Below, piece by piece: positions 3,350 to 35,263 of a DNA stretch of 64,000 nt (its first letter is position 1; each line of letters opens with the position of its first letter). The DNA comes from Colwellia demingiae (GTDB taxonomy: Bacteria; Pseudomonadota; Gammaproteobacteria; Enterobacterales; Alteromonadaceae), in the NCBI RefSeq assembly GCF_007954275.1, contig NZ_VOLT01000002.1, forward strand, positions 62,001 through 126,000. The letters run 5' to 3'. The translations under genes were made by a program, and so were the position numbers. A model generated the notes under the pieces. It saw only the letters and a list, made by a program, of their open reading frames with translations, made no database searches and had not been told where the DNA came from.

Positions 3350-3829
3350 TTATTCAATGCGGAAGTGACGGCGAACACGGCGTAACAACAAAAACACCCA
3401 TGGCCAAAGCACAATAGTAGTTATCACTGGGTATAAATAATTTGGTAGGAATACAACATCGCTTAAGAAACGTTGCAACCAAAAAACAACGAGGTGGTAT
3501 TGCGCTGAGAGCACACCAATAATGAGTGCTTGTTGCCACACTGAGAAATTTCTAATTTTTTGAAAATTGACTACAACAATATAAACAGATAAAGCCATCG
3601 CACAAGCATGAACACCAAGCACGGAGCCGAGTAAAACATCAAGAATAAAGCCCATCACCCACGCGGTAAAAATATTGACTTTATTAGGTAACGCTAAGCA
3701 CCAGTAAACCAAAACAATGAGCACCCAATCAGGGCGAAAAGCGTCAACACTCAATGGCATAGGGGTAATACTTGCCATCAATGCAATCAGCAGAGTTAGT
3801 AAAATAATAAAGCCATTATTGCTAAACAT
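3350..3829 (-). CDS. mreD: Rod shape-determining membrane protein MreD
   Basis: MreD is an integral inner-membrane subunit of the elongasome that links MreC to the RodA/PBP2 wall synthase. The 159-residue sequence is almost entirely hydrophobic, with about five predicted membrane helices (for example 8–24, 32–48, 55–75 and 100–118), as expected for the family. The start ATG overlaps the mreC stop by one base (TAATG), which indicates translational coupling. The charged C-terminus (LLRRVRRHFRIE) is typical. Confidence 0.93.
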   Translation of the reverse strand: MFSNNGFIILLTLLIALMASITPMPLSVDAFRPDWVLIVLVYWCLALPNKVNIFTAWVMGFILDVLLGSVLGVHACAMALSVYIVVVNFQKIRNFSVWQQALIIGVLSAQYHLVVFWLQRFLSDVVFLPNYLYPVITTIVLWPWVFLLLRRVRRHFRIE

Positions 3830-4704
3830 TATGATTTACCTACCACTGTTTTCTTGGTTGTCGATGGAGACTTAGGCTTAACGGGTTCGTCCTTAGAAAG
3901 TAGAAGCATATAACGTAACCGGTCAATTTGAGCGACAGGTTCACTGTAAATAGTCGCAAATTCTCGTGACTCATCGGCACGTACTAAAACAACACGGGAA
4001 ACAGGATAGCCTTCTGGATACTTACCACCTAAGCCTGAAGTGACTAACAAGTCACCTTGTTTCACATCTGCACTATGGGGAACAAAATTATGAATTAGTC
4101 GATCGATTTGGCCACTGCCAGAAGCAATAAGCCTTAAGCCGTTTCGTTGAACACGAACAGGAATAGCATGAGATATATCACTTATTAAAATCACCCGGGA
4201 GCTACTGACTCCCACATGTAATATTTGCCCAACAATCCCTTTTTCATCAAGTACTGGCTGACCTTCATAAACACCATCATTGGCGCCGCGATTAATTACT
4301 ACTTGGTGTGAATATGGGTCGCTATCAACGGACAATATTTCGGCAAACATTTTTTTTATCTCACCACGAACGGGTGACGAAAGTAATGACCGTAATCTTC
4401 CATTTTCTTGACGTACACTACTTAGCTGCATCATTTGTTCATGAAAGAACAGCTCATTTTCTCTAAAGTTTTGATTCTCTTCCATCAACTGCTGACGAAT
4501 AACTATGTTTTCTGAAGCCCAAGTCATCATTTGCTTAGGTGCGTTAGCCATATATTGCAACGGGCTAACTAAGGATTGTAAATAACCACGTGCGGTTTCA
4601 AAACTCGCCATTTTATGGTCGAAAAAAATCAAGGCCACCGAACAGCAAAGCACCAAGATAAGTCGGTGCGCTGGGGATGTGCCTTGATTAAAAATTGGGT
4701 TCAT
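3829..4704 (-). CDS. mreC: Rod shape-determining protein MreC
   Basis: MreC is a periplasmic scaffold of the elongasome that activates PBP2. The 291-residue protein has a single N-terminal membrane helix at about 14–30, a coiled coil at about 70–110 that mediates dimerisation, and the two-lobed beta domain, recognised by INRGANDGVYEGQPV, the GIVGQI motif and GLGGKYPEGYPV. The C-terminal tail is Lys/Pro/Ser-rich. It is separated from mreB by 199 nt, unusually long for this operon; a structured repeat lies in that gap at 4804–4883. MreD follows with a one-base overlap. Confidence 0.95.
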   Translation of the reverse strand: MNPIFNQGTSPAHRLILVLCCSVALIFFDHKMASFETARGYLQSLVSPLQYMANAPKQMMTWASENIVIRQQLMEENQNFRENELFFHEQMMQLSSVRQENGRLRSLLSSPVRGEIKKMFAEILSVDSDPYSHQVVINRGANDGVYEGQPVLDEKGIVGQILHVGVSSSRVILISDISHAIPVRVQRNGLRLIASGSGQIDRLIHNFVPHSADVKQGDLLVTSGLGGKYPEGYPVSRVVLVRADESREFATIYSEPVAQIDRLRYMLLLSKDEPVKPKSPSTTKKTVVGKS

Positions 4705-4803
4705 ATAAAACTACAAGCTTGAGGGATAAGGTTCTGACGCTTTAGAGAGAATATAGTTCAACAAGACAGCACCCTAACTTTCAATCAATAATTTATTCAT
4801 AGC

Positions 4804-4883
4804 CATTTAGTTCAAGTACAAGGAAATCGCACGGAGTTGACGTTAGTCAATGAGTACTATTAACGCCGTAATTGAGCTAAATG
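4804..4883 (-). repeat. Structured intergenic element, copy 1 (between mreB and mreC)
   Basis: A 48-nt core at 4820–4867 matches the core at 34748–34795 in 44 of 48 positions with no gap. The core contains the hairpin TTGAC-GTTA-GTCAA at 4836–4849. It is enclosed by arms CATTTAGTTCAAGTAC (4804–4819) and GTAATTGAGCTAAATG (4868–4883), which pair at 14 of 16 positions. The arms of the second copy have unrelated sequence but also pair. The strand given is that of the flanking mreB and mreC transcript. No known family was recognised; it could be an RNA processing or attenuation element, or a small mobile element. Confidence 0.75.
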
Positions 4884-4903
4884 ACACAGAAGAAAAATTG
4901 ATT

Positions 4904-6256
<1,353 letters not shown>

Positions 6257-33708: not shown

Positions 33709-34091
33709 CAGGGTTTATCCTGCGCGAGGTAAGTCTTTAAGCTAGCACTGACTAACTCATCGTCTTCATTTAATCGAACCTGCATATTCACGGCACGTAG
33801 CTCTTTATTCGCTGTTTTAATAACCTTTTGCTGCCAATACCAGGTTCTGCCCGCCATCTCAACTTTGCCTTTACGGTTATTTTTTGGCGGCCAAGTTTTA
33901 TCTAAACTCACTTCAACAAGTTGGTTCGATGCTACCCAAGTAGCAAACATTTGTTCTTCTAGATGACTAATATGACGATAATTATTATCGGCAACACCGA
34001 GAAGAGCTACACCAGCAATAGCAAAAACAGCCATTGCCAACATAACTTCAATAAGGGTAAATCCATGCTGCTTAGTTGAGTTAATTATCAT
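33708..34091 (-). CDS. gspI: Type II secretion minor pseudopilin GspI
   Basis: The protein of 127 residues has a ten-residue leader ending in KQHG, then FTLIEVMLAMAVFAIAGVAL with Glu5, and the GspI marker ATWVASNQLVEV. The ATG at 34091 overlaps gspH by 11 nt; a TTG at 34109 would only add six residues and is less likely. The ribosome site is weak, which suggests coupling to gspH translation. Confidence 0.92.
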   Translation of the reverse strand: MIINSTKQHGFTLIEVMLAMAVFAIAGVALLGVADNNYRHISHLEEQMFATWVASNQLVEVSLDKTWPPKNNRKGKVEMAGRTWYWQQKVIKTANKELRAVNMQVRLNEDDELVSASLKTYLAQDKP

Positions 34092-34701
34092 CAAGCACGG
34101 GCCCCTCAATAGTTAATGGCACACTATATAACCCCGTCACACGATAAGCTAAATCTTCAGCATCTTCGATATAGGCCAGCTCTTGTGTTAAACGGAAAGT
34201 AACACTAAAAGGACTGAGATCTCCGCCAGAGAGAATATACACTTGCGGGATTATTTTTTCCTCTCGCTCTTCTTTTGAAAGCAAAGTGAAGTCGTCTTCA
34301 TCTTTTTCTTTAAAAGTATCAGCATCAAAAAGCATCGGCTCTTCAATAGGTAAGTCATCCAACTCTATGCTGAGCTCTATTTCTTCTGGTACGGTGACAT
34401 TGGCTTGCCAATCTTGTTCTGGAATTTCTGCCCATTTTGTACCGTCATAACCAACAAACTGATAACTATCTTTTTTAACAATCAACCCTAATTCAATATT
34501 ATTGAGCATGCCATACTCAGCAGCCACCTCAAAAATAGCAGCAAAACGAGCACTCTCATGCTTTAACTTATCCTCAGGGTTATTGCCGGAAAAGTTAAAT
34601 TGCACCAAACTGGCCATAAGACCAATCAGCACTACAACCACCATTACCTCAATCAAGGTAAAGCCGCGTTGTTTTATTGTTAATTCCGATAAATATCTCA
34701 T
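34081..34701 (-). CDS. gspH: Type II secretion minor pseudopilin GspH
   Basis: The 206-residue prepilin has a 13-residue leader ending in KQRG, then FTLIEVMVVVVLIGLMASLV with Glu5, and the GspH/FimT domain with EYGMLNNIELGLIV. An acidic insert around residues 115–150 is longer than usual. It is separated from gspG by 130 nt that contain the structured repeat at 34730–34813. Confidence 0.92.
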   Translation of the reverse strand: MRYLSELTIKQRGFTLIEVMVVVVLIGLMASLVQFNFSGNNPEDKLKHESARFAAIFEVAAEYGMLNNIELGLIVKKDSYQFVGYDGTKWAEIPEQDWQANVTVPEEIELSIELDDLPIEEPMLFDADTFKEKDEDDFTLLSKEEREEKIIPQVYILSGGDLSPFSVTFRLTQELAYIEDAEDLAYRVTGLYSVPLTIEGPVLDDN

Positions 34702-34729
34702 AGGATGATCAGTGATGGTTGAACTTGAA

Positions 34730-34813
34730 GCTGTAAGCGTAAATTTAAAGGAAATTGCACGGAGTTGACGTTAGTCAATGAGTACCTTTGACGCCTAAAT
34801 TTAGATTTACAGC
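34730..34813 (-). repeat. Structured intergenic element, copy 2 (between gspG and gspH)
   Basis: The 48-nt core at 34748–34795 agrees with that at 4820–4867 at 44 of 48 positions, and includes the inner hairpin TTGAC-GTTA-GTCAA. Arms GCTGTAAGCGTAAATTTA (34730–34747) and TAAATTTAGATTTACAGC (34796–34813) pair at 15 of 18 positions and share no sequence with the arms of copy 1. It lies in the transcribed spacer of the gsp operon, 29 nt after the gspG codons begin to end and 18 nt into the run-up from gspH's start. Confidence 0.75.
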
Positions 34814-34831
34814 AATAAGATCAGCTATTAC

Positions 34832-35263
34832 TTATTGGAAGTCGCCTAGGTTCCAATTACCTATGTCATCTTCTGTTCCGGCTTCACCATCTGGACCCAC
34901 TGAAAAGACATCCATTTTACCCTGTTCACCTGGATTCAATAAAACATACTCATTGCCCCAAGGATCTTTTGGTAAACGTTTTATATAACCATCTTCAGGA
35001 AAACGACGAGGCTCTGGCTCAATATCAGTTTGATCTACTAATGCTTCCAAACCTTGCTCTGTCGAAGGATAGTCATAATTATCCATTTTATATAAACTTA
35101 AAGACGTTTCTAGCGCAGTAACATCTGATATGGCTTTTTGCATATTAGCGCGTTCTTGGCTACCCATTAAATTAGGCACAACCATACTGGCTAAAATACC
35201 TAAAATAACAATCACCACCATCACTTCTAATAAAGTGAAACCTTGTACTTTTTTCATGTTCAT
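34832..35263 (-). CDS. gspG: Type II secretion major pseudopilin GspG
   Basis: GspG builds the pseudopilus. The 143-residue prepilin has an eight-residue leader ending in VQG, then [20 protein letters not shown] with Glu5. The domain carries YKMDNYDYPSTEQGLEALV and the calcium-binding loop SVGPDGEAGTEDDIGNW, both hallmarks of GspG. AGGAAAG stands before the ATG. It is the most abundant T2SS protein in known systems, which makes the structured spacer that follows it notable. Confidence 0.97.
   Translation of the reverse strand: MNMKKVQGFTLLEVMVVIVILGILASMVVPNLMGSQERANMQKAISDVTALETSLSLYKMDNYDYPSTEQGLEALVDQTDIEPEPRRFPEDGYIKRLPKDPWGNEYVLLNPGEQGKMDVFSVGPDGEAGTEDDIGNWNLGDFQ

Follow-up and report, generated by a model that had tools for sequence, protein, structure and literature searches.

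ERIC repeats are widely used in strain typing and are usually treated as mobile, and their role is unsettled. In E. coli they lie near highly expressed genes. They are described as known from Enterobacteriaceae and Vibrionaceae (PMC10969869), and one account classes ERIC as a MITE (PMC2229807). For Yersinia, the published accounts state that ERICs at 3′ ends affect the upstream mRNA via RNase E, with orientation being crucial, and that ERICs are cotranscribed and the upstream RNA is less stable (PMC2229807, PMC10969869). The V. cholerae ERIC is described as about 20 bp shorter, cut at the TIRs and not predicted to fold (PMC2267715).

The window (the whole 64-kb stretch of Colwellia demingiae DNA that was analysed) contains two complete copies of a structured element, one in the mreB-mreC spacer and one in the gspG-gspH spacer (Table 1). 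The first-pass annotation had described conserved cores between unlike but self-complementary arms. When recomputed, the cores were 48 nt each and identical at 44 of 48 positions, and the arms formed Watson-Crick pairs at 14 of 16 and 15 of 18 positions. As that annotation had also stated, both copies lie in transcribed spacers within operons, after mreB and before mreC and after gspG and before gspH, in the same orientation relative to the upstream gene. The arm sequences of the two copies were identical at 5 of 16 and 8 of 16 positions. Folded as RNA, both copies gave z-scores between -3.0 and -4.8 on both strands. Pairing continued outward from the arms first recognised by 16 more columns per side, with 15 pairs in the consensus, about 10 of which form in the mreB copy itself. 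The unit is a hairpin of about 135 nt with a nearly fixed plan, not of 80 nt, and its pairing spans 122 columns; the 48-nt core is a hairpin in its own right, with two further internal loops. We refer to the strand with GGAG..TGA as the “+” strand of the element, and the mRNA at mreB-mreC is its reverse complement. Queried with blastn (E<=1e-3), the mreB-side copy with its flanks matched 18 places in its own genome.

Table 1. Parts of the two complete elements and their neighbouring genes (positions in the window; R1 is the covariance model of the element)
Feature	Position	Strand	Remarks
Complete element, mreB-mreC spacer	4777..4911	+	R1 match, 132.5 bits (G000:C21:66777-66911); 135 model columns; in seed alignment
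Helix 1, left strand (outer arm)	4783..4798	+	Pairs with 4889-4904; weakest helix
Helix 1, right strand	4889..4904	+	Base 4904 is the final base of the mreB stop codon
Helix 2, left strand (arm first recognised)	4804..4819	+	Pairs with 4868-4883
Helix 2, right strand	4868..4883	+	Pairs with 4804-4819
Conserved core, mreB copy	4820..4867	+	Outermost: internal loop AAGG/AACGC
Helix 3, mreB-copy core	4822-4832 with 4854-4864	+
Internal loop GGA/GA, mreB-copy core	between helix 3 and helix 4	+
Helix 4, mreB-copy core	4836-4841 with 4846-4851	+	Capped by tetraloop
mreB, upstream gene	4904..5947	-	Stop codon TAA 4904-4906 abuts hairpin base; NCBIfam
mreC, downstream gene	3829..4704	-	NCBIfam
Second complete element, gspG-gspH spacer	34705..34839	+	R1 match, 123.9 bits (G000:C21:96705-96839); in seed alignment
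Conserved core, gspG copy	34748..34795	+
Left arm, gspG copy (helices 1 and 2)	34711..34747	+	Pairs with 34796-34832
Right arm, gspG copy	34796..34832	+	Terminates on gspG stop codon
gspG, upstream gene	34832..35263	-	Stop codon TAA 34832-34834; NCBIfam
gspH, downstream gene	34081..34701	-	NCBIfam

Forty-seven copies from the genus were folded with 60 nt of flank. Most of them paired well past the arms first recognised and stopped at about the same place, while five (L008, L025, L035, L052, L053) were degenerate or folded otherwise. Alignment A1 consisted of 41 genus copies aligned with MAFFT, from which L008, L047 and L050-L053 were excluded as truncated, altered or near-duplicate. RNAalifold proposed 35 pairs on A1, 27 of which had changed on both sides; with the outer helix written in there were 44 pairs, 36 of them changed on both sides, and 85.6% of cells were paired. 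The covariation score of A1 was 0.414, compared with 0.165 in shuffles (none of 500 reached the observed score) and 0.07-0.15 in slid registers. The plan comprised four helices and three internal loops with nearly fixed spacing. The outer loop has AAG on its left side, the second is AAGG/(A,G)ACGC, and the third, GGA/GA, lies beneath a 6-pair hairpin with a tetraloop.

Alignment A2 consisted of 31 copies from outside the genus, which were found with R1 and aligned to it and are hence biased towards it. In A2, 42 of the 44 pairs had changed on both sides and 90.3% of cells were paired. Four of five measures were higher than in all 500 shuffles, and the remaining one, the number of further pair types, was reached by 20 of 500. 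Helix 1 was the least well paired, with 71% of cells in A1, 69% in the mreB orthologs and 84% outside the genus. Columns 48 and 86, which face each other in the second loop, held A-G in 38 rows, C-A in 23, A-A in nine, T-G in one and a gap in one (72 rows, A1 and A2 together). C-G occurred in none of the 72 (p=1.6e-11 by Fisher's test of the rows with A and C, not a true probability as the rows are related). A Watson-Crick pair is thus avoided at these columns, and from this pattern the second internal loop itself seems to be kept.

Covariation was tested on three sets, namely 41 copies of the genus, 31 of other genera and 32 orthologs at mreB, and all bear out the earlier suggestion that the stems covary around a conserved core. 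Arms that do not pair, or that keep one sequence, would speak against it; copies of this kind were sought, and only a few degenerate ones turned up (for example L008, L035, L052 and L053). The same annotation had offered insertion of a small element into the loops of pre-existing hairpins as an alternative. This was rejected, as the arms of the full copies are of near-fixed length, contain an internal loop themselves and belong to the element. Since the element is placed at the stop codons of dozens of housekeeping genes in Colwellia and some relatives, and the arms hold their pairing while their sequence changes, it looks like a working part of these genes and not like the debris of a mobile repeat.

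R1 matched all 39 Colwellia genomes, with 7-46 copies each and 37 in the genome under study (G000). Across the order, where the search used stricter filters than in the genus and scored 13 candidates per genome, matches were found in 54 of 247 genomes (two of them Colwellia), belonging to 13 of 87 genera and eight family labels (f1, f6, f7, f9, f11, f16, f20, f21). With blastn, the 80-nt mreB copy matched 37 of 37 genus genomes and none of 24 genomes from other genera of the order. A pattern scan of named genomes gave at least 80 loci and, among the matches listed, 26 were not titled Colwellia. R1 matched 22 of these 26, among them loci from Aliivibrio, Vibrio, Photobacterium, Thalassotalea, Pseudocolwellia, Cognaticolwellia, several doubtfully named MAGs or SAGs and, weakly (39 bits), Shewanella. 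Nothing was found by R1 in three Pseudomonas loci and one Modicisalibacter locus of the same 26. In a comparison of the genome under study with a second Colwellia genome, G033, 29 of 33 copies shared at least one flanking gene with a G033 copy; these genomes are close (flanks 82-100% identical), so shared flanks are weak evidence on age. Among the papers listed on Colwellia repeats and on ERIC and MITE in C. psychrerythraea, none was seen to describe the element. The work of Zo in 2011, on ERIC across Gammaproteobacteria, may include it.

Two kinds of compound arrangement were seen. Three loci of family f11 (L124, with purH, L137 and L140) have two inverted copies 53-60 nt apart, and similar inverted pairs are listed in other f11 genomes. 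In three further cases extra sequence is nested in the hairpin apex (L399, the mreB site of G009; G000:C24:128830-129016; G000:C13:288871-289058). The nested sequence in L399 is about 70 nt long, and by eye the extra sequences are partly palindromic. These three cases suggest that another small repeat uses the hairpin as a target.

The genes upstream of 33 copies in the genome under study were classified with NCBIfam and Pfam. They were mreB, gspG, dnaB, infB, dapD, leuC, purH, tgt, an aldolase-II protein, lapB, argS, groES, eno, guaB, purL, prfC, guanine deaminase, carB, guaA, nqrF, both tuf genes, ilvE, thiG, an Fe-S biosynthesis (IscA-like) protein and yajC. An acyl-CoA dehydrogenase and a hemL-like transaminase fell below curated cut-offs, acnB had one model below its cut-off and one above, and four genes (L179, L184, L194, L195) matched no family at the cut-offs used. 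The copies at the two tuf genes (L198, L199) are nearly identical and slightly shorter (L047, L050); gene conversion may have kept them alike. Twenty upstream genes from outside the genus were scanned, and families were found for eno, dnaK (three), queA, secA (two), guaB, purH, sdhB/frdB, gyrB, prs, dnaN, groEL, ilvC and guaB in Aliivibrio, and four of the 20 matched none. Three genes, guaB, purH and eno, have the element in Colwellia and again in other genera, in the case of eno within the same family.

The reference for codon adaptation consisted of groEL and the two tuf genes, the latter being carriers of the element. Leaving out both tuf genes and one gene shorter than 300 nt, 30 of the 33 upstream genes had a median CAI of 0.54, compared with 0.39 for 51 ORFs of the window (p=5e-8); the median of the downstream genes was 0.45 (n=26, p=1.4e-4). 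Judged by family and codon usage, the upstream genes are mostly housekeeping and codon-biased. The first-pass annotation had proposed that the element follows the gene whose product is expected in excess. This held in so far as the upstream genes are codon-biased as a class; within operons, however, upstream CAI exceeded downstream CAI in only 16 of 25 cases, which is not significant (p=0.23).

Gene contexts were read with a simple ORF caller for 66 of the 74 R1 matches in the genome under study and G033, eight partial, insertion-bearing or antisense-echo matches being excluded. Relative to the “+” strand, the neighbours were oriented “--” in 47 cases, “+-” in 10, “++” in nine and “-+” in none, so that 56 of the 66 copies lay between codirectional genes. 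In the genome under study alone, codirectional copies were “--” in 22 cases and “++” in five (binomial p=0.0015). A cruder first count of 82 loci, in which mreB orthologs are over-represented, gave 65 “--”, 12 “++” and five “+-”. The absence of copies between divergent genes (0 of 66) is weak evidence alone, as divergent neighbours are rare in the window (5 of 51 pairs).

Wherever the right-hand gene read in, its stop codon lay at the right base of the hairpin, at offsets of -23 to +5 in 28 of 28 cases in the genome under study and -23 to +8 in 29 of 29 in G033; these are not independent sets, as the genomes are closely related. The commonest offsets, -8 and -12, place the stop within helix 1 or at its end. 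On the opposite side, the gap to the next gene start ranged from 3 to 242 nt (22 “--” copies of the genome under study). Outside the genus the stop lay at -22 to -4 in 24 of 26 copies and at +43 and +62 in the others. Context was read in 11 of the 22 R1-matched loci not titled Colwellia, and the stop was in place in eight, the others being at +11, +11 and +47. In the “++” class the right end lay 6-31 nt ahead of the next called start in six of nine copies, the called ORF began inside the element in the other three, and the upstream stop was 25-208 nt off. The stop-codon and orientation rule matches what De Gregorio reportedly found in 2005 for Yersinia, where stop-overlapping ERICs are said to prefer one orientation.

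The stop-codon address, together with the bias in orientation and the codon bias of the upstream genes, suggests that the element acts on the upstream transcript when translation terminates or afterwards. Our preferred reading is that a dispersed ERIC-related hairpin has become a fixed 3′-end part of many housekeeping transcription units; that it sets mRNA decay, protecting the upstream segment, is held tentatively, a little short of an even call. Starting at the stop codon, the hairpin in the mRNA would refold behind each terminating ribosome and so form a structured 3′ boundary of the upstream coding segment. Such a boundary, as proposed for REP and ERIC hairpins, would most likely decouple the decay of this segment from that of the downstream part by blocking 3′-to-5′ exonucleases and positioning an endonuclease cut. 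We favour protection of the upstream, highly expressed gene over its destabilisation. The ERIC of Yersinia makes it plausible, by analogy, that the element gives the upstream and downstream parts of the mRNA unequal levels. However, several points stand against protection by the mRNA hairpin. In most copies the strand that folds better is not that of the mRNA, which fits poorly with selection for the fold of the mRNA alone, the element is dispensable at mreB-mreC (see below), and the published effect of Yersinia ERICs is destabilisation of upstream RNA, of opposite sign.

That published effect is the basis of an alternative that we consider unlikely, in which terminating ribosomes would melt the base of the hairpin and expose an RNase E site in the arm, so that the upstream segment decays faster. 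It is the model described for 3′-end ERICs in Yersinia (PMC2229807, PMC10969869), and helix 1, where the ribosomes would act, is the helix that pairs least (see above). The agreement of the stop-codon and orientation rule with the reported findings of De Gregorio also speaks for it. A standing destabiliser would nevertheless be odd for codon-biased housekeeping genes, and the arm sequences vary. It is very unlikely that the element acts by a REP-like translational effect, in which terminating ribosomes would stall at a hairpin no more than about 15 nt from the stop codon and the upstream gene would yield less product. The geometry fits, and REP reportedly provides a precedent for ribosome stalling near a stop codon in the work of Liang and Deutscher. 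Against this, the stem in the genus is weakest at its base, and the upstream genes are codon-biased as a class.

Intrinsic terminators are likewise hairpins directly past a stop codon, and they differ by a U-tract. This candidate was rejected: 3 of 50 copies had at least six T among the 10 nt that follow the hairpin, the other 47 having no U-tract, which argues against termination, and no terminator-like site was found at either window copy. The element also differs from terminators in that 56 of 66 copies lie between codirectional genes. The GGAG hairpin had also raised the possibility of a REP/RAYT repeat. REP/BIME and RAYT-linked repeats are short palindromes downstream of genes, with GGAG beside a small hairpin, and the element differs from them in its length of about 135 nt and its three-loop plan. 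Roles in 3′ mRNA protection and in ribosome stalling are known for REP/BIME. This candidate too was set aside, as PF01797 (Y1_Tnp) had no match in the genome under study; among the 39 genus genomes, all of which have the element, a Y1_Tnp/RAYT match was present in 27 and absent from 12.

The mreB 3′ region was extracted from all 39 genus genomes and was readable in 38, L375 being cut by a contig end. R1 matched 33 of the 38 mreB-mreC spacers and had no match in five, and the element is consequently dispensable there. No element was recognised in L382, L392 and L393 and, by eye, there was no hairpin remnant in L382 and L392. L401 (G002) has an internal deletion in which the apex is lost and the two arms face each other across a short loop, and L388 has one arm followed by other sequence. 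Decayed copies occur in G011 and G015 (42 and 47.5 bits). In L367 and L368 (G033, G010) the mreB stop lies about 16 nt further upstream than in the genome under study, and what appears to be a remnant of a longer mreB end follows it.

Of the 33 matched sites, 32 were aligned with MAFFT without fitting to the model, the insertion-bearing L399 being left out. In this alignment 27 of 44 pairs had changed on both sides and 82.9% of cells were paired, while slid registers gave 11-17 pairs and 32-47% of cells. In alignment A5, a model-fitted set of 31 mreB orthologs without L399 and L397, 29 of 44 pairs had changed on both sides and none of 500 shuffles reached any of the five measures. These sequence comparisons suggest that pairing at the orthologous mreB spacer was kept after fixation, the alternative being gene conversion from other copies. 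They bear on the idea, which we regard as rather improbable, of a mobile or selfish repeat without host function, whose fold serves mobility and whose copies are tolerated only at gene ends. Such a repeat would account for the dispersal at 7-46 copies per genome, the absence from some orthologous sites, the decay of some mreB-site copies and the MITE classification of ERIC in the published account. Yet the compensatory changes at one orthologous site in 32 species suggest selection after fixation, barring gene conversion. In addition, the few arm positions shared by the two window copies imply no recent common master, and the stop falls within a range of about 30 nt and not anywhere in the spacer.

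Strand preference was assessed by folding 59 copies as RNA, seven more of the 66 having been removed by a length filter. The “+” strand folded better in 46 of the 59 (p=8e-7), including 31 of 42 copies of the “--” class, in which the mRNA is the “-” strand. It also folded better in 26 of 31 copies from outside the genus and in eight of eight ERICs. Structure inference and covariance-model detection were done on the “+” strand, which biases the model-found sets towards it. Among the mreB orthologs there was no strand preference (19 of 31, p=0.37). By cell count, G.T pairs exceeded A.C on the “+” strand in A1 and A2; the sign test by pair gave p=0.18, 0.23 and 0.85 (A1, A2, A5), and inference on “+” biases this comparison. 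That the same strand folds better in “--” and “++” copies, as if a single-stranded form had been selected, would suit the selfish repeat. The strand result fits neither the protective nor the published destabilising model well. On one reading, mobility depended on a single-stranded form, and sites that have become fixed retain no more than pairing as such. We think it most unlikely that the “+” strand is itself the working molecule, either as an antisense RNA that covers the gene's 3′ end or as protein-bound single-stranded or cruciform DNA. The better fold of this strand, the opposed G.A loop mismatches and the location of most G.T pairs on it are in line with this possibility. Against it stand the bias of inference and detection, the lack of preference at the mreB site, and a promoter scan near the two window copies that gave no more sites than shuffles.

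The first-pass annotation had recognised no named family, and as regards Rfam this remains true. There were no matches at the gathering score in the whole window or in five relatives' loci, and a search of positions 4700-5000 at E<=1 returned only mir-1245, far under its cut-off. Rfam also returned nothing for an E. coli ERIC (L081). The statement does not hold for repeats outside Rfam, since the element is related to ERIC. A putative ERIC consensus of 85 nt was used as a probe. It matched 5,375 of 5,426 complete E. coli genomes and 312 plasmid records, nearly all from enterobacteria among the matches listed. It had no blastn match in the genome under study and matched 1 of 274 genomes in a class-wide sample, being a poor probe. 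Eight real ERICs had the apex CCCCAG-GA-GCTTAC-N4-GTAAGT-GA-CTGGGG or a near variant; outside it lay AAGG and, in most, AACGC. R1 matched one of them end to end (L081 of K-12, E=0.002), and the other eight sources of that search, seven of them ERIC loci, had no match.

In the reverse direction, a covariance model of ERIC (R2) matched 4 of 28 other-genus sources with R1-type copies (L141, L125, L120, L119; E 3e-8 to 8e-5) and none of 21 own-genus sources at E<=10. The matches were in register with the middle of ERIC deleted, and in the best ones CUAAG, AAGGCG, GAGCUU/AAGUGA and AACGCA were aligned. In the genome under study R2 matched the groES-groEL copy (E=0.005). It also found three ERIC-like copies missed by R1 (G000:C11:33547-33674, C24:507064-507191, C25:156107-156247), each with a gene stop at the right end (offsets -3, 0, -4). 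Across the order, R2 found ERIC-like copies in 58 of 247 genomes and 27 of 87 genera, and 15 genomes of family f21 were in both the R1 and R2 lists. R1 and R2 thus cross-match weakly but in register, each link being weak, and from these sequence matches the element is very probably a relative of ERIC that is shortened in the middle. A full-length primary sequence match to the consensus of about 127 nt failed, while the apical and internal-loop motifs were found in the same order and register, on weak scores, and the element is one long, intergenic, multi-copy hairpin. It is therefore filed as a variant and not as ERIC itself.

As a sister element of ERIC, it offers sequence evidence of long-lasting selection on structure at one site. 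Its strict address, the stop codon of housekeeping genes, makes the question of whether ERIC-like repeats act testable at mreB-mreC, gspG-gspH and groES-groEL, and R1 provides a means of annotating a family for which the Rfam searches of the window and of relatives' loci found no model. More speculatively, and with some doubt on our part, ERIC and the element could be branches of one ancient structured 3′-end module of Enterobacterales, Alteromonadales and Vibrionales. This module, a hairpin of almost constant length with three internal loops, would be stop-phased at core genes (guaB, purH, eno, dnaK, secA, groES, tuf) and kept for very long by compensatory evolution. In that case the ERIC of enteric bacteria would have arisen later, as a mobile branch. 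The better folding of its “+” strand would be left over from a mobile form that was single-stranded, and would have disappeared from copies fixed for a long time, such as the one at mreB.

The closest known system is ERIC (IRU, RU-1) of Enterobacteriaceae and Vibrionaceae, a dispersed imperfect palindrome of about 127 nt that, as a mobile MITE, inserts with duplication of a TA target site. Two internal loops of the element recur in real ERICs. Both share the apical GGAG-stem-tetraloop-stem-TGA, with AAGG and AACGC outside the inner stem, and both are intergenic, ERIC being reported as cotranscribed and at gene 3′ ends. The ERIC middle, a CCCCAG/CTGGGG stem and about 12 nt on each side, is absent from the element or replaced by a shorter stem. 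The arms of the element are kept in pairing and not in sequence, whereas the mean column identity of eight ERICs was 85%. The V. cholerae ERIC, as far as its published description goes, is likewise a shortened ERIC of a related family, and R1-type copies occur in Vibrio, Aliivibrio and Photobacterium. Compared by that description, it differs in being unable to fold, while the element keeps its arms and folds.

The position of the stop codon also separates the element from ERIC. In the two Colwellia genomes the stop lay at the hairpin base in 57 of 57 copies with a gene reading in, compared with 2 of 10 such enteric ERICs among 18 inspected. Ten of the 18 came from family f18, which we take to be Enterobacteriaceae; six had a gene reading into the right end, none with its stop there. 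Of the eight named enteric ERICs four had a gene reading in, and in two, from Pantoea (L082) and Rahnella (L084), the stop was in place. The stop-codon rule is much tighter here than in enteric ERICs, though not foreign to them.
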